Shown here: positions 21,669-35,311 of the stretch, one piece after another
Layout: every line of letters starts with the position of its first letter
How positions within the stretch are numbered: the first letter of the stretch is position 1
From: Methylococcales bacterium
Lineage (GTDB): Bacteria > Pseudomonadota > Gammaproteobacteria > Methylococcales > Methylomonadaceae
Length of the DNA: 64,000 nt
Assembly (NCBI GenBank): GCA_030949405.1
Contig: JAUZSN010000002.1
Location: forward strand, 62,001-126,000
Direction: 5' to 3'
Notes under the pieces: generated by a model
What the model saw: only the letters and a program-made list of their open reading frames with translations
Database searches by the model: none
Told to the model about the DNA's origin: nothing
Position numbers and translations under genes: made by a program

Positions 21669-24600
21669 TTACTTCTGTAAACCATTTTCCTGTTGTTGCA
21701 AAACAAAGCTATAAATAACAGGAAACACCAATAAGCTCAATAATAACACCGTAACCATTCCGCCTAGAACAGGGGCAGCAATACGTTGTGCCACATCTGC
21801 TCCTGTGCCTGTACTCCACATAATAGGAATTAACCCTGCCATGGTTGAAACAGCAGTAATGACTACGGGACGCACTCTTAACGCGGTTGCTGTTTCCACA
21901 GCTTGACTAATTTCATCGGCTGATAAACTCCGTTGTTTTTGTCGGCGTAAGGCAGCAATTTCTATATCTATAAAATTTAGTACCATCACTCCCGTTTCTG
22001 CTGCTGTCCCTGCTAAGGCAATAAAACCGACATAAACCGCAACGGATAAATTGAAATCGTAAGCATAAGTAATCCAAATGCCACCAATAAGTCCAAATGG
22101 CACGGTCAGCATCACAATCAAAGGCTCAGTTACATTGTGAAAGGTAAAATAAAGTAATAAAAAAATCGCTAATAAAGTGATTGGCACGACTATTTTTAAA
22201 CGTGCCGCTGCACGTTCCATATATTCAAATTGTCCTGACCAATTAATCGTATAACCTGCGGGCAGTTTGATTTTTTCTTTGACTAATTGTCTGGCTTTTT
22301 TTACAAAACCTCCTATGTCCGAGGTGGTAATATCCACATAAATCCACGCATTGGGTCTGGAATCTTCACTTTTTATTGAGGGTGCGCCGCGTGTGAGTTT
22401 TAATTCAGCGACTAATGCCATTGGAATTTGACTGCCATTTGGCGTAGAAATTAATACACGTTTCAACTGTTCAAGATTATCACGTAATTCTCGTGGATAA
22501 CGCAGATTAACAGGATAACGCTCTAAGCCTTCTACGGTTTCTGTGATATTCATTCCCCCAATAGCAGTTTGAATCACATCTTGAATATCGCCGACGGTCA
22601 ATCCATAACGAGATGCTTTTTCACGATCTATATCAAAATCTAAAAAATACCCCCCCATTGCTCTATCCGCAAAAGCTGATAAGGTTTCTGGCATGGTTTT
22701 CATCACCTGTTCAATTTCTTTAGCCAGTGATTCTAAAACCTTTAAATCCGCGCCACCAACCTTGATACCCACGGGCGTTTTAATCCCTGTTGATAACATA
22801 TCCAAGCGGTTTTTAATCGGCATCGTCCACGCATTAGTCAACCCAGGTAATTGAGTTGCCTTATCCATTTCATTCATTAATTCTTTCATGGTTTTTTTAG
22901 GATTAGGCCATAAATCCCGTGACTTTAATGAGAGTGTGGTTTCCATCATCGCTAAGGGAGCTGGATCAGTCGCGGTTTCTGCACGTCCTATTTTACCAAA
23001 CACGCGCTCAACTTCAGGAAAGGTTTTTAAAATTTTATCGGTTTGTTGTAATAATTCTTTTGCTTTAGTAATTGAAATTCCTGGAAACGAACTCGGCATG
23101 TATAAAATATCGCCTTCGTCTAAGGGCGGCATAAACTCACTACCGACTTTAGATAAAGGATAATAGCTTGAGGCTAATAATAAAAGTGCAAGCAATAAAG
23201 TCACGCTACGAAAACGCATCGCTACTTTTAAAATTGGCGTGTGTAAAAAATGTAACAACCGATTAGCAGGGTTTTTATGTTCTGGAATAATTTTACCGCG
23301 TATAAAATAGCCCATTAATACAGGAACTAAGGTCACGGTTAAAATAGCTGCCGCGCCCATCGCATACGATTTTGTAAACGCAAGCGGACTAAATAACCGC
23401 CCTTCTTGTGCCTGCATGGTAAAAATAGGCACAAAAGAAACGGTAATAATTAATAAGGAGAAAAATAACGCAGGTCCAACTTCTTGTGAGGATTTACGAA
23501 TGACTTCCCAGCGTTCATCTGAAGTTAATTCTGCTTTTTTCTTTTCAACTGCGTCGGCTAAATGTTTATGGGCATTTTCAACCATTACAATTGCCCCATC
23601 GACCATATCGCCAATCGCAATCGCAATCCCCCCTAAGGACATGATATTGGCATTTAAACCTTGCCAACGCATTAAGATAAAGGCGATTAAAATCCCCAAA
23701 GGTAGGCTAATAACAATCACTAAGGATGAGCGGATATGTAATAAAAACAACGCGACAATAATACTAACAATAACTAGTTCTTGTACTAAAGCGGTATTCA
23801 AGGTATCGACTGCGCGGGTAATTAAATTACCTCGATCATAAACAGGAATAATTTCTACGCCTTTAGGCAAGCCCCGTTTTAATTCTTCTAGTTTTTCTTT
23901 AACGGCATTAATCGTTGCTTGGGCGTTTTCACCAAAACGCATAATAATAACCCCTCCTACGACTTCACCTATCCCGTCTAATTCAGCGACTCCTCGACGT
24001 AATTCTGCGCCTAAATGGACATGAGCAACATCTTGCAACCGTATCGGTGTGCCATTTTCATTCACGCCTAAAGGGATCTGATTCAAATCATCTAACGATT
24101 TAATATAACCCAGTCCACGCACCATGTATTCGGTTTCTGCCATTTCAATTAAACGTCCACCAACATCATTATTTGAGCGTTGAATAGCGCGTTTAACTTT
24201 AGATAACGGAATGTTAAAGGCTAATAAGGCGTTAGGGTCAACTTCGACTTGATATTGTTTGACATAACCGCCAATTGAAGCCACTTCTGCGACTCCGTTG
24301 ACGGTTTGCAAGGGATAACGCAAATACCAATCTTGTAAAGAGCGTAATTGGGCTAAATCATGTTGTCCCGTTTTATCAACTAGAGCATACTCATACACCC
24401 AACCCACCCCTGTGGCATCTGGACCTAACGTGGGGGTAATCCCCTCTGGCAGTCGGTCACTGACATAATTCAAAGATTCCAAAACCCGCGAACGCGCCCA
24501 ATACATATCGGTATCATCTTCAAAAATAATATAGACAAAGGAGAAGCCAAAAAAGGAATAACCCCGTACTGTTTTAGATTTCGGAACAGATAACATTGCG

Positions 24601-24812
24601 GTGGTTAAAGGGTAAGTAATTTGGTCTTCAATTACTTGCGGAGATTGCCCCGCATATTTGGTAAAGACAATCACTTGCACATCGGATAAATCGGGGATGG
24701 CATCTAAAGGCATATTTTTAAAAGACCATAAGCCGCCTAATCCGAATAATAAGGCGGCAAGTAAGACAATAAAACGGTTTTTAATGGCGTTATTGATAAG
24801 AGAGTTAATCAT
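21669..24812 (-). CDS. cusA: CusA-like Cu(I)/Ag(I) efflux RND permease
   Basis: The inner-membrane proton-driven pump of a heavy-metal efflux RND system, 1047 residues, with the usual two sets of membrane helices around large periplasmic loops. The metal-binding methionines described for E. coli CusA have counterparts: ILYMPSSFPG, PLAMMETTLSL and NRLDMLSTGIK correspond to the Met573/623/672 triad, so Cu(I)/Ag(I) is the likely substrate rather than Co/Zn/Cd. Other family motifs: NNDVGGRLIEM, GGIAIAIGDMVDGAIVMVEN and IALAGTAAETGVMVLNFI. Its partners cusB and cusC lie 2.7-5.7 kb upstream on the same strand, separated by toxin-antitoxin genes and remnants. The 3' end is only 23 bases from an IS66-like copy. 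Confidence 0.93.
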   Translation of the reverse strand: MINSLINNAIKNRFIVLLAALLFGLGGLWSFKNMPLDAIPDLSDVQVIVFTKYAGQSPQVIEDQITYPLTTAMLSVPKSKTVRGYSFFGFSFVYIIFEDDTDMYWARSRVLESLNYVSDRLPEGITPTLGPDATGVGWVYEYALVDKTGQHDLAQLRSLQDWYLRYPLQTVNGVAEVASIGGYVKQYQVEVDPNALLAFNIPLSKVKRAIQRSNNDVGGRLIEMAETEYMVRGLGYIKSLDDLNQIPLGVNENGTPIRLQDVAHVHLGAELRRGVAELDGIGEVVGGVIIMRFGENAQATINAVKEKLEELKRGLPKGVEIIPVYDRGNLITRAVDTLNTALVQELVIVSIIVALFLLHIRSSLVIVISLPLGILIAFILMRWQGLNANIMSLGGIAIAIGDMVDGAIVMVENAHKHLADAVEKKKAELTSDERWEVIRKSSQEVGPALFFSLLIITVSFVPIFTMQAQEGRLFSPLAFTKSYAMGAAAILTVTLVPVLMGYFIRGKIIPEHKNPANRLLHFLHTPILKVAMRFRSVTLLLALLLLASSYYPLSKVGSEFMPPLDEGDILYMPSSFPGISITKAKELLQQTDKILKTFPEVERVFGKIGRAETATDPAPLAMMETTLSLKSRDLWPNPKKTMKELMNEMDKATQLPGLTNAWTMPIKNRLDMLSTGIKTPVGIKVGGADLKVLESLAKEIEQVMKTMPETLSAFADRAMGGYFLDFDIDREKASRYGLTVGDIQDVIQTAIGGMNITETVEGLERYPVNLRYPRELRDNLEQLKRVLISTPNGSQIPMALVAELKLTRGAPSIKSEDSRPNAWIYVDITTSDIGGFVKKARQLVKEKIKLPAGYTINWSGQFEYMERAAARLKIVVPITLLAIFLLLYFTFHNVTEPLIVMLTVPFGLIGGIWITYAYDFNLSVAVYVGFIALAGTAAETGVMVLNFIDIEIAALRRQKQRSLSADEISQAVETATALRVRPVVITAVSTMAGLIPIMWSTGTGADVAQRIAAPVLGGMVTVLLLSLLVFPVIYSFVLQQQENGLQK

Positions 24813-24867: not shown

Positions 24868-25146
24868 ATGATAAAAAGTTTTCTACATAAAGGGTTAGAA
24901 CGGTTTTACCAATCTGGTAATTCATCGGGCATTCAAAATCAGCATAGTAAAAGATTACAGCTGATTCTTTCTAACTTAGACCAAGCAGAAACCCCAGAGG
25001 ACATGAATCTACCAGGACTTGGGCTACATAAATTAAAAGGGAATCGGCAAAATATTTGGTCTATCAAAGTCAGTGGAAATTGGCGTGTCACTTTTCGTCA
25101 TGTTAATCAAGATGTTGAAATTGTAAATTATGAGGACTATCACTAA
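24868..25146 (+). CDS. higB: HigB/RelE-type toxin
   Basis: A 92-residue RelE/ParE-superfamily toxin of the HigB type, expected to cleave mRNA at the ribosome. Motifs: [13 protein letters not shown] at the N-terminus, the [20 protein letters not shown] segment and the NWRVTFRH...NYEDYH C-terminus, which carry the usual basic and aromatic active-site residues. The toxin gene precedes its antitoxin, as in higBA systems, and the TAATG junction overlaps by one base. It is transcribed away from cusA. Confidence 0.9.
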
Positions 25147-25400
25147 TGGTTATGTATAATCCAGCCCATCCAGGTGAAATTTTAAAAGAGCTTGTTATTG
25201 AATCGTTAGCGTTATCAATCACAGATGCCGCAGAACATTTAGACGTTAGCCCTAAAGTGTTAACAAAAATCTTAAATGGAAAAATCAATATAAGTCCTGA
25301 AATGGCTTTACGATTAGAGCTGGTTTTTCATAAACCCTCGGCTAATCATTGGTTACGACTGCAAACGGCTTATGATTTATGGCACGCTCGTCAACATTAA
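25146..25400 (+). CDS. higA: HigA-type antitoxin
   Basis: An 84-residue Xre-family helix-turn-helix protein of the VapI/HigA type. It begins with the signature [15 protein letters not shown] and has the [23 protein letters not shown], followed by [20 protein letters not shown] and the [11 protein letters not shown] tail. It would neutralise the toxin encoded immediately upstream and repress the pair. The start overlaps the toxin stop by one base. Confidence 0.92.
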
Positions 25401-25429
25401 GAAAATTTACACGTTATGCCTTATCAAGC

Positions 25430-25460
25430 GGCTTAAATCTTAGCTAATCTGTAATCATTT
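25430..25460. repeat. Copy of a mazF 3'-end sequence
   Basis: CGGCTTAAATCTTAGCTAAT and the next ten bases nearly repeat 26024-26053, which covers the end of the MazF-like gene. The pair flanks the Fic pseudogene as direct repeats and probably marks a lost second mazF copy or an excision/duplication joint. Confidence 0.5.
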
Positions 25461-25470
25461 ATTAATCCAT

Positions 25471-25954
25471 TTACTGTCTATTTAAAATACTAATCACGAC
25501 TTGCTTAATGGTTTCTTTTTCTTCAGGTTTACTTTCTGCAATTAACAATGTCAGTGAAGCAAGCGTGTGACCACTTACTATTGACTGATGATTTGGGTTG
25601 TACAATAATTTATTTTTTTCTAAAAAATATAAAAAACAAGCGGCTGCAATACGTTTATTGCCATCAACAAAAGAATGATTTTTAACAATAAGATAAAGTA
25701 ACATCGCCGCCTTTTCTTCTATCGACTTGATAACTTTTATTATCCGCCGCAGTTGTCGCAAATTTTGCGACAACTGCGGTTTTTTCAAGCTCACTTTCTT
25801 TAAAAATGTTGTTAATATGCTTACCAATTGTTTTTATATCTCTATCAAATAAAGCAGCAAGTTGTTGACGATTAAGCCATACCGTTTCTTTTTCAAACGC
25901 TACTTCAACTTCTACTTGATTATCAACTGTTTGATAAATAATTATTTTTTCCAT
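25471..25954 (-). pseudogene. RhuM-Fic type protein, internally deleted
   Basis: Two overlapping frames correspond to the two ends of one larger protein. The N-terminal piece (25682-25954) has the RhuM/Fic-associated domain ETVWLNRQQLAALFDRDIKT with IGKHINNIFKE. The C-terminal piece (25471-25827) has the Fic motif NHSFVDGNKRIAAACFLYFL. Full-length relatives are about 330 residues. Here the middle is gone and the join near 25730 is out of frame, so no AMP-transferring enzyme is made. Confidence 0.75.
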
Positions 25955-26037
25955 TTTAAAAATTCCTAATTTTTGATTATGGGCATTGTACGTTCTTTGT
26001 GATTCATCATTTCTATATCAAACGGCTTAAATCTTAG

Positions 26038-26304
26038 CTAATTTGTAATCACTTTAATCAAGGCTTTTACTTTATCAATACTGGCTTGTGAAACGCGCTC
26101 AATAAATTCGGCTTCATGTTCTGAAAAATCTAATGATTTAAGTTGATGGATTAAAATGGCACCTTTAGTCTCAAGTTTTTCTTCTAAAACAATCTCCAGC
26201 ATAATGCCACGAACCCGACTACTGATTGGCGCAACTAAAGCTAAACCTGTATGTTCATTGAATATTTTTCTGGAAATAACATAAGCAGGACGGCGTTTAA
26301 TCAT
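26038..26304 (-). CDS. MazF/PemK-type toxin, N-terminally shortened
   Basis: An 88-residue PemK/MazF-family protein. It begins at RRPAYVISRKIFNEHTGLAL and has VAPISSRVRG and ILIHQLKSLDF, the conserved core of the RNase. Intact relatives carry about 20 more residues at the start, including the RGDIVW strand and a GHEQ segment. Here an in-frame stop lies three codons upstream of the ATG, so that part is lost and activity is doubtful. No MazE antitoxin gene is visible on either side. Confidence 0.65.
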   Translation of the reverse strand: MIKRRPAYVISRKIFNEHTGLALVAPISSRVRGIMLEIVLEEKLETKGAILIHQLKSLDFSEHEAEFIERVSQASIDKVKALIKVITN

Positions 26305-26332: not shown

Positions 26333-26611
26333 TTAATGGCTATGTCCCTTTGAAGGCTTAGGTGTTTTAAGGTTATTTACTTTGCCATCGCGTCGAATAT
26401 AAATAAAATTTCCATTAACTAATTCCAACATAACGCCTTTTTCTATGCTTACAATTTTTCCTGTTTTATCAATAATTTTTATTACTTGCTCATTTTCTAT
26501 AAAAACACTTGAGCCATCTTTTAATTTTAAAGGTTTATTTTCCCTTGTAATCGTTGCACAGGATGTCATAACAAAGAGTAAAAATATTAATGAGATTAAT
26601 TTTATTTTCAT
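26333..26611 (-). CDS. CopK-like copper-binding lipoprotein
   Basis: A 92-residue predicted lipoprotein: signal MKIKLISLIFLLFVMTSC with a lipobox Cys18. The mature part (LKLKDGSSVFIENEQVIKII, KTGKIVSIEKGVMLELVNGN and IYIRRDGKV) has the repeated strand pattern of CopK, a periplasmic Cu(I)/Cu(II)-binding protein. It ends in a His-containing tail (SKGHSH). The internal ATG at 26611 is chosen over an upstream one because it starts the signal peptide cleanly. It follows the DUF2231 gene by 37 bases and is probably in the cus operon. Similarity to CopK is moderate, and the usual Met-rich sites are mostly absent. Confidence 0.5.
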   Translation of the reverse strand: MKIKLISLIFLLFVMTSCATITRENKPLKLKDGSSVFIENEQVIKIIDKTGKIVSIEKGVMLELVNGNFIYIRRDGKVNNLKTPKPSKGHSH

Positions 26612-26648
26612 AGGGTTCGCCAGATTAAATTTAGAATTAAAGAGAGTC

Positions 26649-27536
26649 TTAATGTTGATGGTCATGAGTTTTTTCACTAGAATTATCAGCTTTAGAAACA
26701 GCGTCTATATTTTGAGAATCATGTTCGTGAGCATCATTTTTTATGGGTTGCTCTTTAGTCTTCTCCTCAACGGCTTCATGACTATGATTATGCTTTTCAA
26801 TATTTTTTTCACTATCAGAAGAGACTGATTCGGTTTTAGGTGCTATTTCTGTTTTTTGAGGGTCATTCTCTTTTATTAGTTGACTTTCAGCCGATTTATT
26901 AGGGTTTCCTTCATGGCTATGATTATGTCCGTCAATGTTTTCTTCATCACCATGAGAAGAGACTGATTCTGTTTCAGGCGCTATTTCTTCTTTTTGAGGG
27001 TCATGCTGATGGGCATTCTCTTCTGCCGATTCATTAGGACTTCCTTCATGACTATGATTATGTCCATCTGCCCCTTCTTCAACCTTGGGTAAAGAGATAA
27101 CGCCTAAGCCATAACGATAAACAGCTTCCGCGCCTAACCATGCCGTGGTCATGAGCATAAGTCCTGCAATCATTGAGAAGGTTAAAAACAAAAAGCTAGG
27201 CTGGCGTTCTTTTTTTGCCAATAGTATTGCCCAAACGCCCAACAGTAAGAAAACAGTAGCTGTGGGTAACGCCCAATTTCTATGCAATGTCATTGCCGCA
27301 TGAGAAGCACTATCATGAGCAACACTATTATAGGAAAACCAACCTGCTATCGCCGTCCCTATGGTCAATAAACAGCCACTCCATAACGACCAATTTGCCA
27401 TGTTCAACCATTGCTGTTGCCAGTGATATTTGTTCGATAATAATTTGGCTGCAAAATAAAATAGGATAGAAATACTTAATAAAGCCACCGTGAAGTGAAC
27501 AAAAATAGGATGCCAATTAGGGATGATTTCAATCAT
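26649..27536 (-). CDS. DUF2231 membrane protein with long His-rich repeat tail
   Basis: A 295-residue protein. Residues 1-150 form a DUF2231-type domain with four membrane helices, beginning IIPNWHPIFVHFTVALLSIS, the typical P.HPxxVHF motif. The remaining half is a hydrophilic tail with repeats of the form DGHNHSHEGxPNxSAE, plus EHDSQN and a final HDHQH; it contains many His and acidic residues and no Cys. DUF2231 proteins often accompany metal efflux genes. The tail probably binds Cu or another metal (inference). The ATG follows a GGAG ribosome site and overlaps the cusB stop by 8 bases. Confidence 0.75.
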   Translation of the reverse strand: MIEIIPNWHPIFVHFTVALLSISILFYFAAKLLSNKYHWQQQWLNMANWSLWSGCLLTIGTAIAGWFSYNSVAHDSASHAAMTLHRNWALPTATVFLLLGVWAILLAKKERQPSFLFLTFSMIAGLMLMTTAWLGAEAVYRYGLGVISLPKVEEGADGHNHSHEGSPNESAEENAHQHDPQKEEIAPETESVSSHGDEENIDGHNHSHEGNPNKSAESQLIKENDPQKTEIAPKTESVSSDSEKNIEKHNHSHEAVEEKTKEQPIKNDAHEHDSQNIDAVSKADNSSEKTHDHQH

Positions 27537-29232
27537 GAGTATTCTCCATATTGTGTTGGTTGTTTTGGTTGTGTTGGTTGTTTTGTTTATTAGTGGGCAT
27601 TGTATGCTTTTCGTGATTCATCATATCCATGTCCATTTTATGCTCAGGTTTTTTAGACTTCATATCCATATCCATATCCATATCCATATCCATATCCATT
27701 TTATGCTCAGGTTTTTTAGACTTCATATCCATATCCATATCCATATCCATATCCATTTTATGCTCAGGTTTTTTAGACTTCATATCCATGTCCATGTCCA
27801 TTTTATGCTCAGGTTTTTTAGACTTCATATCCATATCCATGTCCATTTTATGCTCAGGTTTTTCAGACTTCATATCCATATCCATGTCCATTTTATGCTC
27901 AGGTTTTTCAGACTTCATATCCATATCCATGTCCATGTCCATGTCCATGTCCATTTTATGCTCAGGTTTTTTAGTTTTCATTTTCAGCATTTTAGCGGTG
28001 GCTTCGCGTAATTTAGACTCAGAATCAATGAGAAATTGTGCTGAAGTCACTACTTTTTCTCCCAGTTCTAAACCTTCTAACACTTCAACCTTATCACCTG
28101 AAGTCAAACCTAACACCACTAGACGTGGCTCAAATTTACCTTTAGCTCTGACCACAAAAACTTGATTGCGCGTTCCCGAACGAATCACCGCTTCGGCTGG
28201 AATCACTAGACTATTTAAGCGTTTGTCGGCTTTAATAGTTAATTCAGCAAACATATTCGGCTTTAACAATAAATCAGGATTATCAAAAGCCAAACGAACT
28301 TTAATGGTGCGGGTTTTTGCATTCGCATACGGATAAATATAAGTCAGCTTCCCTGTAAATATTCGTCCTGGAATACCTACGAGTTGCATTTCTACTAAAT
28401 CCCCTTGTTTAACCCACGGCAATTCATATTCATAAATATCGGCATAAACCCAAACCGTACTTAAATCGGCAATCATATAAATTTCAGTAGCAGGGGTGAC
28501 ATATTGTCCTTCTCTTGCGCCAATTTTCATCACAATCCCTTTTTCTGGACTATGAATATGCAAGCTTTTTTTAATTTTTTGACTGTGTTCAAGTTGACGT
28601 AATTGATGCGGTGGCACATCCAATAACTTTAAACGCTGTTTAGAACTCTCGACTAAAGCCTCTGCACCCTGACGAATTTCAGCAATAGGGCTATTTTGCA
28701 AAATTTTTAAATTATTGAGGGCTAAAATATATTCTTGCTGACTGGTGACTAATTGCGGTGAATAAATACTAAGGAGGCGTGAATTTTTTGCAACCTGTTG
28801 TCCTGTTTTATCCACATACATTTTCTCTATCCAGCCTTCAGTTTTTGGATGTAAATGCACCATCTGTTCTTCGTTATAATCAATGCGCCCAACCGCTCGT
28901 ACATGACGGGTTAAATTTTCGCGGGTAACTTTCCCAGTACGTACACCGATATTTTGTTCAACCACTGCATCTATAGTGACTGTTCCCATTTTTTCTTGGG
29001 GTTTATCCGCTTCGGCATAAACAGGAACATAAGCCATTCCCATTGAATCTTTAGCAGGGACAGGGGAGGTGACATCTGGGTTCATAGGGTGGCGATAAAA
29101 TAACGGTTTTTTAACCACTTCGGAGGGGGGTTGATTTAAAACCATTTTTGCTTGCCAAAAATATGACAATCCAAAACCTGCATTCAAACCGATAAAGAGC
29201 GTTATTACACTGATAAAAATTAACTTATTCAT
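27529..29232 (-). CDS. cusB: CusB-like periplasmic adaptor with Met-Asp repeat tail
   Basis: The membrane-fusion subunit linking the CusA pump to the CusC channel, 567 residues. A membrane anchor (MNKLIFISVITLFIGLNAGF) is followed by a heavy-metal-binding motif (LFYRHPMNPDVTSPVPAKDS then MGMAYVPVY), then hairpin, lipoyl and beta-barrel domains (GRIDYNEEQMVHLHPKTEGW; GAREGQYVTPATEIYMIADL). The last 115 residues are unusual: seven units KPEHK(MD)nMKSxK with n of about 3 to 6, ending in an Asn/Gln/His-rich stretch. Such a Met/His tail could gather Cu(I) for the pump (inference). The ATG at 29232 has a GGAG site and overlaps the cusC stop by 8 bases; a further upstream start is unlikely. Confidence 0.9.
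   Translation of the reverse strand: MNKLIFISVITLFIGLNAGFGLSYFWQAKMVLNQPPSEVVKKPLFYRHPMNPDVTSPVPAKDSMGMAYVPVYAEADKPQEKMGTVTIDAVVEQNIGVRTGKVTRENLTRHVRAVGRIDYNEEQMVHLHPKTEGWIEKMYVDKTGQQVAKNSRLLSIYSPQLVTSQQEYILALNNLKILQNSPIAEIRQGAEALVESSKQRLKLLDVPPHQLRQLEHSQKIKKSLHIHSPEKGIVMKIGAREGQYVTPATEIYMIADLSTVWVYADIYEYELPWVKQGDLVEMQLVGIPGRIFTGKLTYIYPYANAKTRTIKVRLAFDNPDLLLKPNMFAELTIKADKRLNSLVIPAEAVIRSGTRNQVFVVRAKGKFEPRLVVLGLTSGDKVEVLEGLELGEKVVTSAQFLIDSESKLREATAKMLKMKTKKPEHKMDMDMDMDMDMDMKSEKPEHKMDMDMDMKSEKPEHKMDMDMDMKSKKPEHKMDMDMDMKSKKPEHKMDMDMDMDMDMKSKKPEHKMDMDMDMDMDMDMKSKKPEHKMDMDMMNHEKHTMPTNKQNNQHNQNNQHNMENTHD
27626..27980. repeat. Coding VNTR: hexanucleotide runs in the cusB tail
   Basis: Seven tandem units share a 27-30 base constant block (encoding KSxKPEHK) joined by variable runs of the hexamer encoding Met-Asp (ATGGAT/ATGGAC on the coding strand). 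Unit lengths differ only by whole hexamers, so length changes keep the reading frame. The opposite strand has long apparent frames of Ile/Ser or His/Ile repeats, which are shadows. Confidence 0.9.
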
Positions 29233-30499
29233 AAAAATTCTCCTTCCCAACGACGGCATTTAATCGTGCTAAAGCTTGATGAGCTTCCATAAAACTATGC
29301 CAATATTCCATTTCATAATTAAATAAAGTGATTTCACTGCGAATTAAGTTTAAAAAATCGACTTTATTTACCTGATAACCTGAGAGCATTGAAGCCACCG
29401 TTTGCCGTGCTTGCGGAATAATCCCTGTTTCAAACAAGCTGATTTGCTGAGTGCTACGTTGATAATCACTATAAGCGATTGAAATTTGTTTGCGGACTTG
29501 ATTCCATAAATCTTGCAACGCATATACGCTCTGCCTCACCTCAGCTTTACGTTGTTGTATTGCCTTGTTTTGTTTTCTTTCTGCAAAAATAGGGACAGTG
29601 ACACTGAGTTTCATACTAAAAAAATCATCTCGTCTATTACCTGCCAAAGTATCATCACGCCCCCCATAGAAAGCTCCAATTTTAAAGTCAGGATAAATAT
29701 CTTCTTCAGCTAAGTCTAAACGCGATTTTGCTACTTTAATCTGTTGCTGACCTGCGGCTAATGCGGCTCGAAACTTTTGGGCTTGTTGATAAAGGTTATC
29801 TTCAGGTAAGAGTTTTTTAAATTCAGCAACTACCGTATTAGGTAAGGTTATTTCTTGATTTGCCGCTTGATTTAATAAGGCATTTAACCCAGCTACGGCA
29901 TTTTTACGTTGACCTTGCCATGTTAGTTTCTGGTCTAACAATTTAGATAATTCCAATTGTGCCAACAAGACATCTTGCTGCAGACCTTGACCGACTTCAT
30001 ATTTAGTTCTAGCAACTTCAACAAACTGCCGCAAAAGTGCTTGAGTGCTATCAATAATAGTGAGTACACGGTCAACATAAAAAATTAACCACCATTGCTG
30101 TTTAACATCGCTGACTAATTGCAAACGCGCTTCCTGTAAATTTTCCACAACCACTTTTCTTTCATCCGTCGCCACTTGTTCTCGTAAGGCTAACTTAGTG
30201 GGAAAAGGAATTTTTTGACTAAACCCAAACTGCATTTGTGTCATATTTTCTTGACCTAAATCAAAACTATCGACAGGTAAATTTAAAGCATTAAAACTGA
30301 TTTCAGGGTCAGGCAAAGCCCCGCGTTGCGGAATAATCGCTTGCATCGCCTGTAAACGAGCGTTGATTTGAGCTAAATTGGGATTATCACTTAATGCGAT
30401 TTGGGGTGCTGATTCTAAAGTCAGCAAAGTTTCTGCTTTAAGCGGGTGCATAAAACAAAAACAGACTATCAATAAAGAGTGTCTATAAAGAACTAACAT
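29225..30499 (-). CDS. cusC: CusC-like outer-membrane efflux channel (TolC family)
   Basis: A 424-residue TolC-family protein that forms the outer-membrane exit duct of the efflux complex. It has a signal peptide (cleavage near PLKAE) and two OEP repeats rich in Ala, Gln and Leu, predicted to form the alpha barrel. Motifs include ALSDNPNLAQINARLQAMQA, GALPDPEISFNALNLPV and FFSMKLSVTVPIFAERKQN. It is the first large gene of the cus cluster and overlaps cusB by 8 bases (ATGAATAA), implying coupled translation. The specific cusC name rests on context. Confidence 0.85.
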   Translation of the reverse strand: MLVLYRHSLLIVCFCFMHPLKAETLLTLESAPQIALSDNPNLAQINARLQAMQAIIPQRGALPDPEISFNALNLPVDSFDLGQENMTQMQFGFSQKIPFPTKLALREQVATDERKVVVENLQEARLQLVSDVKQQWWLIFYVDRVLTIIDSTQALLRQFVEVARTKYEVGQGLQQDVLLAQLELSKLLDQKLTWQGQRKNAVAGLNALLNQAANQEITLPNTVVAEFKKLLPEDNLYQQAQKFRAALAAGQQQIKVAKSRLDLAEEDIYPDFKIGAFYGGRDDTLAGNRRDDFFSMKLSVTVPIFAERKQNKAIQQRKAEVRQSVYALQDLWNQVRKQISIAYSDYQRSTQQISLFETGIIPQARQTVASMLSGYQVNKVDFLNLIRSEITLFNYEMEYWHSFMEAHQALARLNAVVGKENFYE

Positions 30500-30652: not shown

Positions 30653-31012
30653 TTAGCTAATGGGGGGTCTAAGCTCAGGTGAGTGAGAAAAAGAGTTTAG
30701 TAAAGCATTCTCAGAATGAGAATAAACAGAAGCCACCGTTATCGAATAAAGGCGGTAATAATTAGGATAATAATGGACACTACATAAATGAAAACTGCAA
30801 TGTGTCATGGAATGACAGTGTTGCATTTTGCTCTTTGAGTGTTTTTGCAAGGGTGAATGAATCGCTTGCTGATTTGACTCAAAAGAAGTAGTCATTGTCA
30901 TTAATGGCTTTTCAGTGTTTAAATTTTTATTTGTACACGGATTAAACGTTGCCATAACAGGCATCGTTACCATGATAAAAATAAGAATAAAACAGCCGAA
31001 AAATTTAAACAT
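30653..31012 (-). CDS. Small exported Cys/His-containing protein upstream of cusCBA
   Basis: A 119-residue protein with an N-terminal signal or anchor (MFKFFGCFILIFIMVTMPVM). After it come HSKSKMQHCHSMTHCSFHLC and HYYPNYYRLY. The clustered Cys, His and Met suggest metal binding, and short proteins of this kind often precede metal efflux operons. It is 154 bases upstream of cusC on the same strand. I do not recognise the family, and the function is unknown. A signal-anchored metal chaperone or sensor accessory is one possibility. Confidence 0.55.
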   Translation of the reverse strand: MFKFFGCFILIFIMVTMPVMATFNPCTNKNLNTEKPLMTMTTSFESNQQAIHSPLQKHSKSKMQHCHSMTHCSFHLCSVHYYPNYYRLYSITVASVYSHSENALLNSFSHSPELRPPIS

Positions 31013-33592: not shown

Positions 33593-35311
33593 TTATGCTT
33601 TCCTTTTAATCATCAAATTAAACTTTTTACGGAGAGCCTCAACTTCTATTGGCATTTCAACTATTTGAAACCCTCTTACAGGACGACCAGTCCTCTCATT
33701 GGTCATTTTATTATTTACATTAACAAAATTAGATTCTTCCAATATTTCAGAAACATAGTGTGCTACTTGTGTGGGGAAAGAGCCAAATTTTCGTAAATGA
33801 TAATCTAACCCATTGTCATAGCCTTTTTTTGACAACGAATCAAACCCGTCTTTACTTATTAAAAAAGGAATACTACCCTTGTGAGATGCATAAGGTATCT
33901 TTTTAGAATCACATAACTCACATTCCTCACTACTTGCTATTATGAGAGCTAATGGGAAGTATGCGAGTGGAATATTAACCCCTTTATATTCATGGTATTT
34001 ATTTCTAGGGTCGAGTTCTATCAAATTCGCACCTACTTTATTAAAAAATGAAATGTCTGCCAACGCATATTGTTTCTGATACTCAAAGCTCTCCTCATTT
34101 CCATTAACTACAGGTGTTACTCTTTTTACAACTGTAGGGTATTTAAATTTACTTCTGTCAATATCAGAAAGAGATTTTACACAAGATTTCCCAAGTTCCT
34201 TAGCTAATAAGGGACATATTGCATTTCCAATTTGATTGTATTGAGATAAGTTTTTCTCCCAACTCATGCATGTTCTTTTACCTTTAAATATGTAACTATC
34301 TGGAAAAGACATGAGTCTAGCAGCCTCCCTAGCAGTCAAGTTTCTATTTTTATATGGGTGTAAAAAAGTAGATTGAAAACTTGCTGGTATAGCAAGACAT
34401 ACTTTGTTTGGATCGAGTCTTTGGTTGTTGCTTTTATATGGTTTTAAACTTGTTTCCCCCGTATACTTTACCTTTTGTCCATTTTCATTAGGAACATCTT
34501 TTAACGATTGACCCGGTTTGATTTTTGAGAATCGCTCAATTAACCTCTTCGTATGCTTCATTGCAACATGATTTGTTATTCCATTTGATTGTTCTCGCAT
34601 TTCATGCTGATATTGGTTTTGAGCTTCAAATTCATATGATACTAAAGAATCTTTACCTTCAGATGCTTCAATCTGAGGTAAATCAGAGATAGCCTCCCAG
34701 ACAGTTATTTTATTTTTATGCTCATCAGGAAATAATGATGACTGTCTTAGTTCCGAGGTATGAGTAGGGCTTGGAAATTTAAACTTAATGCCTTCAAAAT
34801 ATGCAACTATAAAAGCTCTTTTTCTTGATTGTGGCACTCCATAATTAGAACTATCCAACAGTGTAGATTCTACACAATACCCTAATTCTTCAAATTTTAG
34901 GCGGATTATATCAAGCGCAGTTACACCAAATGAAAGTTTCTTAGTAAAAAGTTGAGGAACATTTTCTATTATACAAATGTACGGTTTTTTAAGTTCTGCA
35001 ACTCTCAAAAAATGAAGAAATAAATTATTTCGCGGATCATCAATACCATACTGTGATGGCCCCGCTACAGAAAAACCTTGGCAGGGGGGGCCGCCAACTA
35101 AAACATCTATTTCTGGAAGCGCCAGAATTTCATTATCTGAAATCTTGGTTATATCTCTATTTACAACAGTACATGTCAAATTATTTGCTAGTGTTTCACA
35201 AGCCCACTCATCTATTTCTATTGCGAATGACTCCTTTAGACCTGCAGCTCTCAACCCAACTGAATAACCTCCAGCTCCTGCAAAAACATCACCAAATCTT
35301 ACTGTTTTCAT
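33593..35311 (-). CDS. DNA cytosine-5 methyltransferase of a type II R-M system
   Basis: A 572-residue m5C methyltransferase. Conserved motifs in order are I (DVFAGAGGYSVGL), IV with catalytic Cys77 (GGPPCQGFSVAG), VI (IENVPQLF), VIII (SRKRAFIVAYF), IX (LTAREAARLMSFPDSY) and X (QYNQIGNAICPLLAKELG). The target-recognition region lies between VIII and IX. About 190 extra residues after motif X, containing CELCDSKK and KFGSFPTQVAHYVSE, may add specificity. The start is one base after the stop of the restriction gene, so the two are co-translated. By pairing with a Bpu10I-type endonuclease it should protect a CCTNAGC-like site (inference). Confidence 0.92.
   Translation of the reverse strand: MKTVRFGDVFAGAGGYSVGLRAAGLKESFAIEIDEWACETLANNLTCTVVNRDITKISDNEILALPEIDVLVGGPPCQGFSVAGPSQYGIDDPRNNLFLHFLRVAELKKPYICIIENVPQLFTKKLSFGVTALDIIRLKFEELGYCVESTLLDSSNYGVPQSRKRAFIVAYFEGIKFKFPSPTHTSELRQSSLFPDEHKNKITVWEAISDLPQIEASEGKDSLVSYEFEAQNQYQHEMREQSNGITNHVAMKHTKRLIERFSKIKPGQSLKDVPNENGQKVKYTGETSLKPYKSNNQRLDPNKVCLAIPASFQSTFLHPYKNRNLTAREAARLMSFPDSYIFKGKRTCMSWEKNLSQYNQIGNAICPLLAKELGKSCVKSLSDIDRSKFKYPTVVKRVTPVVNGNEESFEYQKQYALADISFFNKVGANLIELDPRNKYHEYKGVNIPLAYFPLALIIASSEECELCDSKKIPYASHKGSIPFLISKDGFDSLSKKGYDNGLDYHLRKFGSFPTQVAHYVSEILEESNFVNVNNKMTNERTGRPVRGFQIVEMPIEVEALRKKFNLMIKRKA

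Follow-up and report, generated by a model that had tools for sequence, protein, structure and literature searches.

Tandem-repeat growth of a Met-Asp tail on the CusB adaptor of a CusCBA-type locus in a Methylococcales bacterium

The cus locus and its neighbouring genes

The window, i.e. the whole stretch of DNA that was analysed, spans 64,000 nucleotides of a Methylococcales genome (GenBank assembly GCA_030949405.1, contig JAUZSN010000002.1, positions 62,001 to 126,000) and contains a gene for a CusB periplasmic adaptor of an HME-RND pump at 27529..29232 (-). The product is 567 aa long from the ATG at 29232 and 576 aa long from the ATG at 29259, of which the former is the likelier start because it is preceded, at a distance of 7 nt, by AAGGAG, read directly from the sequence as the likely ribosome-binding site (29240..29245 (-)); CusB residue numbers (M59, M424 etc.) are counted from the ATG at 29259. 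The protein has an HlyD_D23 core (PF16576, E 5.9e-81), passes the RND adaptor model RND_mfp (TIGR01730, 135.8 bits against a cut-off of 94.9) and matches the Escherichia coli CusB chains with E 1.5e-44. The curated CusB-specific NCBIfam model PRK09783 was not reached (196.3 bits, cut-off 390), and since this is a subfamily-type model, the miss excludes its subfamily rather than the wider CusB kind.

Both pump partners are encoded on the same strand. A CusC/TolC-type outer-membrane channel (29225..30499 (-), OEP PF02321, E 1.3e-34) overlaps cusB by 8 bp if cusB starts at 29232, and a CusA permease (21669..24812 (-)) scores 1245 bits with TIGR00914 (cut-off 701), matching the E. coli CusA chains with E 0 and 1253 bits versus 542 bits for ZneA. 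This CusA has Met at what we take to be the three positions of the CusA triad (numbering M573, M623, M672). That numbering was not found in the available portion of PMC7558416. Within the window, cusB has cusC on one side and a DUF2231/CopK-like pair on the other, and cusA follows farther downstream, past these and other small genes. The genome also encodes a methane/ammonia monooxygenase subunit A (PF02461, E 1e-127), and the nearest named relatives of the window CusB, among the matches listed, come for the most part from methanotroph records and include Nitrosomonas.

The gene directly after cusB, whose own ATG overlaps the cusB end, encodes a DUF2231 membrane protein with a His-rich repeated C-terminus (26649..27536 (-), PF09990, E 6.5e-16; 135/138-bp repeats within 26774-27081) and is thus a second operon gene with a repeat-grown metal-ligand tail. 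It is followed by a CopK-like small protein with a lipoprotein-like start (26333..26677 (-)), for which the NCBIfam CopK match (E 3e-6, 27.2 bits) falls far under the 123-bit cut-off and a comparison with PDB sequences gave no significant match. Relatives of the latter lie next to cusA in genome G007 and near it in G011; the window version is Met-poor, the versions of G007 (locus L038) and G011 (L039) retain several Met, and a closer low-Met relative occurs at locus L183. The cusC, cusB and cusA frames of genome G020 (L182) look broken or incomplete, and a piece of a DUF2231-His gene lies close by. Between the CopK-like gene and cusA, pairs resembling toxin-antitoxin genes were recognised by eye (24868-26304), and a similar short gene pair separates cusB and cusA in genome G005.

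Upstream of cusC, a small exported-looking Cys/His protein ending in ELRPPIS (30653..31012 (-)) has no Pfam or NCBIfam match; 5 of the 11 operons retrieved have a homologue of it upstream of cusC, and its ending is the same in two of three congeners, the third having EFRPPII. Its layout resembles that of the copper-sensing nascent protein CutF as described in the accessible part of PMC9973294, and it is a candidate leader regulator of cusCBA. Further out lie two group II intron matches (RF02001 and RF01998; 32920-33307), near ORFs that by eye are transposase-like, and a DNA cytosine methyltransferase-like gene, also recognised by eye (33593-35311).

At its N-terminus the window CusB has a Cu(I)-site motif (29035..29085 (-)) in which M59, M73 and M75 align to three Met of E. 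coli CusB, given as the triad M21/M36/M38 in the available text of PMC6235853. All three residues are invariant in two alignments, of 11 and of 35 proteins, and the N-terminal Cu(I)-binding Met that an earlier, sequence-only reading had mentioned for CusB proteins are thus kept in this one, as aligned with the E. coli protein. In the relatives at loci L009, L015, L163 and L182 the Met-triad motif is tandemly duplicated. An AlphaFold2 model built on 35 sequences (mean pLDDT 74.1, pTM 0.51) is confident in the core and also in the N-terminal motif (pLDDT 85-88 for the blocks covering residues 51-80), and its top Foldseek match is CusB of the CusBA complex (3ne5_C, E 1.7e-26, TM by target 0.73). 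The sequence-only reading had named the protein a CusB adaptor; this, and its place in a pump of the Cu(I) type, is upheld by the family models, the fold, the operon, the Met triad and the CusA partner. As judged from sequence, the core, the gene order, the N-terminal Met triad and the CusA partner mark the system as a predicted CusCBA-type Cu(I)/Ag(I) exporter.

Anatomy and origin of the CusB tail

Beyond the core, residues 430-576 (27532..27972 (-)) form a C-terminal tail that is predicted to be disordered, with block means of pLDDT of 37-50 from residue 431 to the C-terminus. The 152 residues past M424 include 39 Met, 12 His, 29 Asp, 11 Glu and 29 Lys, such that the tail is both Met/His-rich by composition and disordered by pLDDT. 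It is built largely of seven KPEHK(MD)n units (27625..27969 (-)) with n = 6,3,3,3,5,6,2, the full unit, from residue 428, being K(S/T)(K/E)KPEHK(MD)nM with 28 MD in total, and the seventh unit is followed by an Asn/Gln/His-rich end, MNHEKHTMPTNKQNNQHNQNNQHNMENTHD, with a 9/18-bp repeat. The seven units and this ending are as the sequence-only reading had described them, and its further statement that the units differ by whole Met-Asp hexamers with the frame kept holds on the unit sequences. Tandem Repeats Finder reports periods of 45 bp, 57 bp and 6 bp in the tail DNA, and the longest perfect hexamer (ATGGAY) tracts measure 39, 33 and 27 bp, i.e. a short perfect tandem repeat within a coding region of the kind that characterises contingency genes.

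All 14 occurrences of (ATGGAY)3 in the 2.98-Mb genome fall within cusB, with none for a reversed-pattern control, and (ATGGAY)4 was found in only 2 of 369 genomes of the class, namely the window's own and G375, in which it lies in a doubtful 48-aa ORF. The confinement to cusB, the empty control and the near-uniqueness among the 369 genomes indicate that the hexamer array is not due to chance. A genome-wide hexamer element was considered and rejected, as (ATGGAY)3 is restricted to cusB, and the presence of the same DNA array in other class members was likewise rejected, since the 369 genomes yielded just the window gene and the doubtful ORF.

Five congeners were compared. Orthologues of cusB are present in G005, G004 and G003, their cores being 95, 90 and 80% identical to that of the window CusB, for which no close match was found in G001 and G002. 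Past M424 the three orthologues have 17, 30 and 6 residues, respectively, with 1, 4 and 0 Met. The long tail is, on this sequence comparison, new in the window lineage, as the congener orthologues have just 6-30 residues at this place. The G004 tail, with EMNHQGHDMEMM and a terminal HD, is similar to the last part of the window tail, so a tail of the G004 kind was probably the origin of the array. All 35 KPEHK codons are identical across the units, which was matched by none of 100000 draws from core codon usage; units 2 and 3 are identical across 45 bp, and GAC and GAT are clustered in blocks along the array. The codon-identical units and the GAC/GAT blocks show that the tail grew by copying of DNA, both in 45-bp and in 6-bp steps. 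The single tail Met of G005, the closest congener, implies that the array is not needed for the pump.

Tails of CusB relatives, paralogues and the distribution of CusF

The wider survey comprised 95 CusB proteins, namely the window protein, 21 near relatives and the best 80 of 574 confirmed matches, minus 5 duplicates and 2 rows cut by contig ends, and the sample thereby leans to close relatives. The near set (21) and a distant set (8) were limited to matches assigned to a locus, with some further close matches having no locus, and locus L110, whose frame ends early in the core, was retained with a tail of 0. In this sample, with its best 80 of 574 matches, the median tail has 31 residues and 4 Met, and at least 3 tail Met occur in 56 proteins, at least 5 in 40 and at least 8 in 23, leaving 39 of the 95 with fewer than 3; short tails with 0-2 Met are common in methanotroph and Nitrosomonas relatives among the matches listed. 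For the other 94 proteins, again including the best 80 of 574, Met makes up 12.4% of the tails versus 2.4% of the cores, and 108 MD pairs were observed in the tails versus 48 expected. The window tail is the longest and Met-richest of the 95 sampled proteins, drawn in part from the best 80 of 574. A search for similar tails in CusB homologues, which the sequence-only reading had proposed as a check, was thus successful, with 40 of the 95 (best 80 of 574 included) having at least 5 tail Met, and the Met-Asp tail is, as far as sequences tell, recurrent in this CusB clade and extends beyond one protein. Among more distant CusB (40-43% identity), Met-rich tails were found in 0 of 8, the tails there having 5-43 residues and 0-2 Met past M424.

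Tandem arrays were also found in the tails of other lineages: a Zetaproteobacteria MAG with an MKGMD unit (10.4 copies of 15 bp), an Acidiferrobacteraceae MAG (3.4 copies of a 51 bp unit), a Bathymodiolus endosymbiont with an NHENM-like unit (15 bp), and three further MAGs with units of 15, 15 and 30 bp. In a Chromatiaceae MAG the repeated element is GATATG (4.5 copies), the hexamer that also makes up the window array. The array label follows the repeat finder, which flagged 8 rows, of which L020 (9 residues) was excluded; L117 and L009, with hexamer or 45-bp DNA repeats, were not counted as array rows. On a quick tree with SH-aLRT support only, where the array rows L070 and L081 sit on an open fork, seven changes are required for the seven labelled rows, and every unit contains Met among the rows sampled.

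Tail length is identical in 7 of the 26 sister pairs of this tree and within 5 residues in 16; 5 pairs differ by at least 20, one of the five owing to the early frame end of L110 in the core. The largest difference, 152 versus 17 residues, is that between the window protein and its nearest congener, at the second-shortest distance of all pairs. In some lineages, then, tail length changes abruptly, and in many it stays stable; species often resemble one another in it, but it is not fixed.

As a control, 18 loci were found with a CzcB-like paralogue. At 17 of these there are 0-5 residues and no Met past the M424 position (7-17 residues and 0-1 Met if counted from D412), with one (L150) running off its contig; the 18th, L160, turned out to be a CusB. 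A Met tail as a general adaptor trait was rejected, as it was not seen in this control. The CzcB-like paralogue in the window genome (L143, C2:409913-411178) has a His/Asp/Glu-rich region at its other end, the N-terminus.

A profile search found the CusF family (PF11604) neither in the window CusB nor in its genome, and it gave no match in any of 61 genomes, i.e. the window's own and those of its genus, family and order, of which 53 are 90% complete or better; the positive controls, E. coli and Caulobacter, were both detected. Of the 80 named loci (the best 80 of 574), 44 were traced to their 44 genomes, among which 8 have a CusF match, 7 of them above the cut-off, and CusF occurs in 3 of 23 genomes with Met-rich versus 4 of 21 with Met-poor tails (Fisher p 0.69; loci among the best 80 of 574). 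The tail as an all-or-none substitute for CusF was rejected, since tail Met and CusF are unassociated at these 44 of the best 80 of 574 loci. At the Gallionella locus L163 a CusF match adjoins the cusC gene and a Met-tailed cusB gene, and at L161 (4770-6371) and L162 (2942-4597) a CusF domain forms the C-terminus of CusB-like adaptors, preceded at L162 by a Met-rich linker. The position of these fusions suggests that the adaptor C-terminus is a place where metal modules get added.

Possible roles of the tail

E. coli CusB, of the CusCFBA system, shares with the window protein the fold, the CusA and CusC operon partners and the N-terminal Met triad, but its chain has just 13 residues past the matched stretch and it partners a free CusF, whereas the window genome has no CusF family match. 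SilB of Cupriavidus metallidurans and the CusB-CusF fusions have in common with the window CusB a metal-handling module at the adaptor C-terminus, putative in the window protein; in the former it is a folded CusF beta-barrel, in the latter a predicted-disordered repeat with no CusF match. The metal buffers SilE and PcoE contain Met/His motifs and are separate soluble proteins, untethered to an adaptor. To our knowledge, no Cu(I) site made of alternating Met and Asp has been characterised. The accessible text of PMC4446572 ascribes a metal-chaperoning function to the C-terminal CusF-like domain of SilB, and that of PMC8686694 suggests that SilE may store silver ions ahead of delivery and proposes an interplay with SilB. 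The disordered N-terminal region of PcoB, a copper-efflux protein, is like the window tail poorly conserved and Met/His-rich; mutation of its Met or His leads to Cu accumulation, a change in its size is tolerated, and the Met and His mutants accumulate copper yet grow like the control in copper (PMC12509749, available part). PcoB differs in being an outer-membrane beta-barrel with the region at the other terminus, and the same part of that paper describes no tandem Met-Asp array. In the accessible portions of the open-licence literature searched, no description of a Met-rich C-terminal tail on CusB was found.

The reading that we favour, and hold to be reasonably probable, is that the predicted-disordered tail of the window CusCBA adaptor would serve as a tethered collector from which Cu(I) is passed to the Met triad, its array having arisen by DNA tandem duplication in this lineage. 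The adaptor membrane-proximal domain is described, in the part of the review seen (PMC4446572), as consisting mainly of C-terminal elements and an N-terminal strand linking to the inner membrane; from this description and the fold match, the tail should exit near CusA and the N-terminal metal site. With both ends of the adaptor at the membrane-proximal side, the tail would be held near the Met triad and the CusA metal entrance, where, as a low-affinity, many-site collector, it would raise the local Cu(I) concentration and hand Cu(I) to the N-terminal triad and then to CusA, a role that would be that of free CusF in E. coli and of the fused CusF domain in SilB. The unit would have been seeded from an older short Met/His tail and copied as 45-bp blocks, with whole ATGGAY hexamers gained or lost within units. 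We infer Cu(I) binding by the tail, the hand-over and a fitness benefit. Points in favour are the family, fold and operon, the conserved Met triad, the Cu/Ag-type CusA, the predicted disorder, the Met enrichment and recurrent arrays of the sampled tails, the missing CusF matches, the CusF fusions and the SilB and PcoB parallels; the lack of a trade-off between tail Met and CusF, the many relatives with short, Met-poor tails, the single tail Met of G005, the unimpaired growth of the PcoB mutants in copper and the unreached CusB-specific model count against it.

Neutral repeat growth, in which hexamer and 45-bp duplications persist because they keep the frame and do no harm at a disordered protein end, the tail having no function, is rather unlikely in our estimation. 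The codon-identical units, which point to recent DNA copying, and the absence of the array from the closest congener, at 95% core identity, speak for it; however, clade tails are Met/Asp-rich even without tandem arrays among the relatives sampled, the sampled paralogous adaptors have no such tails, and all seven array units contain Met, although their seeds were probably Met-rich already. The sequence-only reading had proposed a possible copper sponge tunable by slipped-strand mutation. The analysis supports a tail that is Met/Asp/His-rich, disordered (as predicted by AlphaFold2) and grown by DNA duplication (from codon identity), but variation was seen between species only, with one genome for the window's own species. 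A contingency tail whose repeat number shifts within populations, putatively setting the copper capacity of the pump, seems improbable to us: the tracts of 39, 33 and 27 bp are perfect, the frame is kept, units differ by whole hexamers and 5 of 26 sister pairs differ by at least 20 residues (one of them through L110), against which 16 of the 26 differ by at most 5. A broader version of the favoured reading, that this CusB clade, mostly in genomes with no CusF match, has evolved a tethered disordered Met-Asp metallochaperone by repeated tandem duplication of DNA, and that hexamer slippage in the window's methanotroph lineage provides a heritable, quickly adjustable copper dial on the number of Cu(I) sites per pump, is doubtful and put forward only tentatively.

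The tail could instead be a docking, spacing or stabilising segment for partners such as the CopK-like and DUF2231-His proteins rather than a metal store. Of 61 genomes, 3 yielded a CopK-like protein (G000, G007 and G011), and close DUF2231-His relatives occur in the same three of 41, with a shorter piece in G020; no other CusB tails among 22 near relatives are as Met-rich as those of the three, an association with n=3 that was noticed after looking. The co-occurrence suggests a shared copper-buffering set, but it also fits docking, as does the stabilisation of PcoA by the disordered region of PcoB reported in the available part of PMC12509749. With three genomes only and an association spotted afterwards, with the G038 and G052 tails having 6 Met and no CopK-like match, and with a tail composed of known thioether and imidazole metal ligands, we regard a docking role as improbable too. 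Least credible of all is an array length produced by the assembly, in which the size of long tandem repeats can come out wrong: the frame is intact across seven unequal units to the final HD, an ending common to many relatives, and the cusB end overlaps the start of the next gene.

What is new here is the Met-Asp tail that grew by repeat copying on a CusB adaptor, whether it replaces a CusF-type module or adds to one; the adaptor kind itself is known. The family presents a clear case in which a putative number of metal sites evolves by repeat copying, several times and at one place in one protein. The natural tail series, from 0 to 39 Met on similar cores, makes the delivery idea testable by tail swaps on one pump. 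A tethered, length-variable, unstructured collector on the adaptor, if true, would be a simple answer to how Cu(I) is delivered to CusA without CusF.
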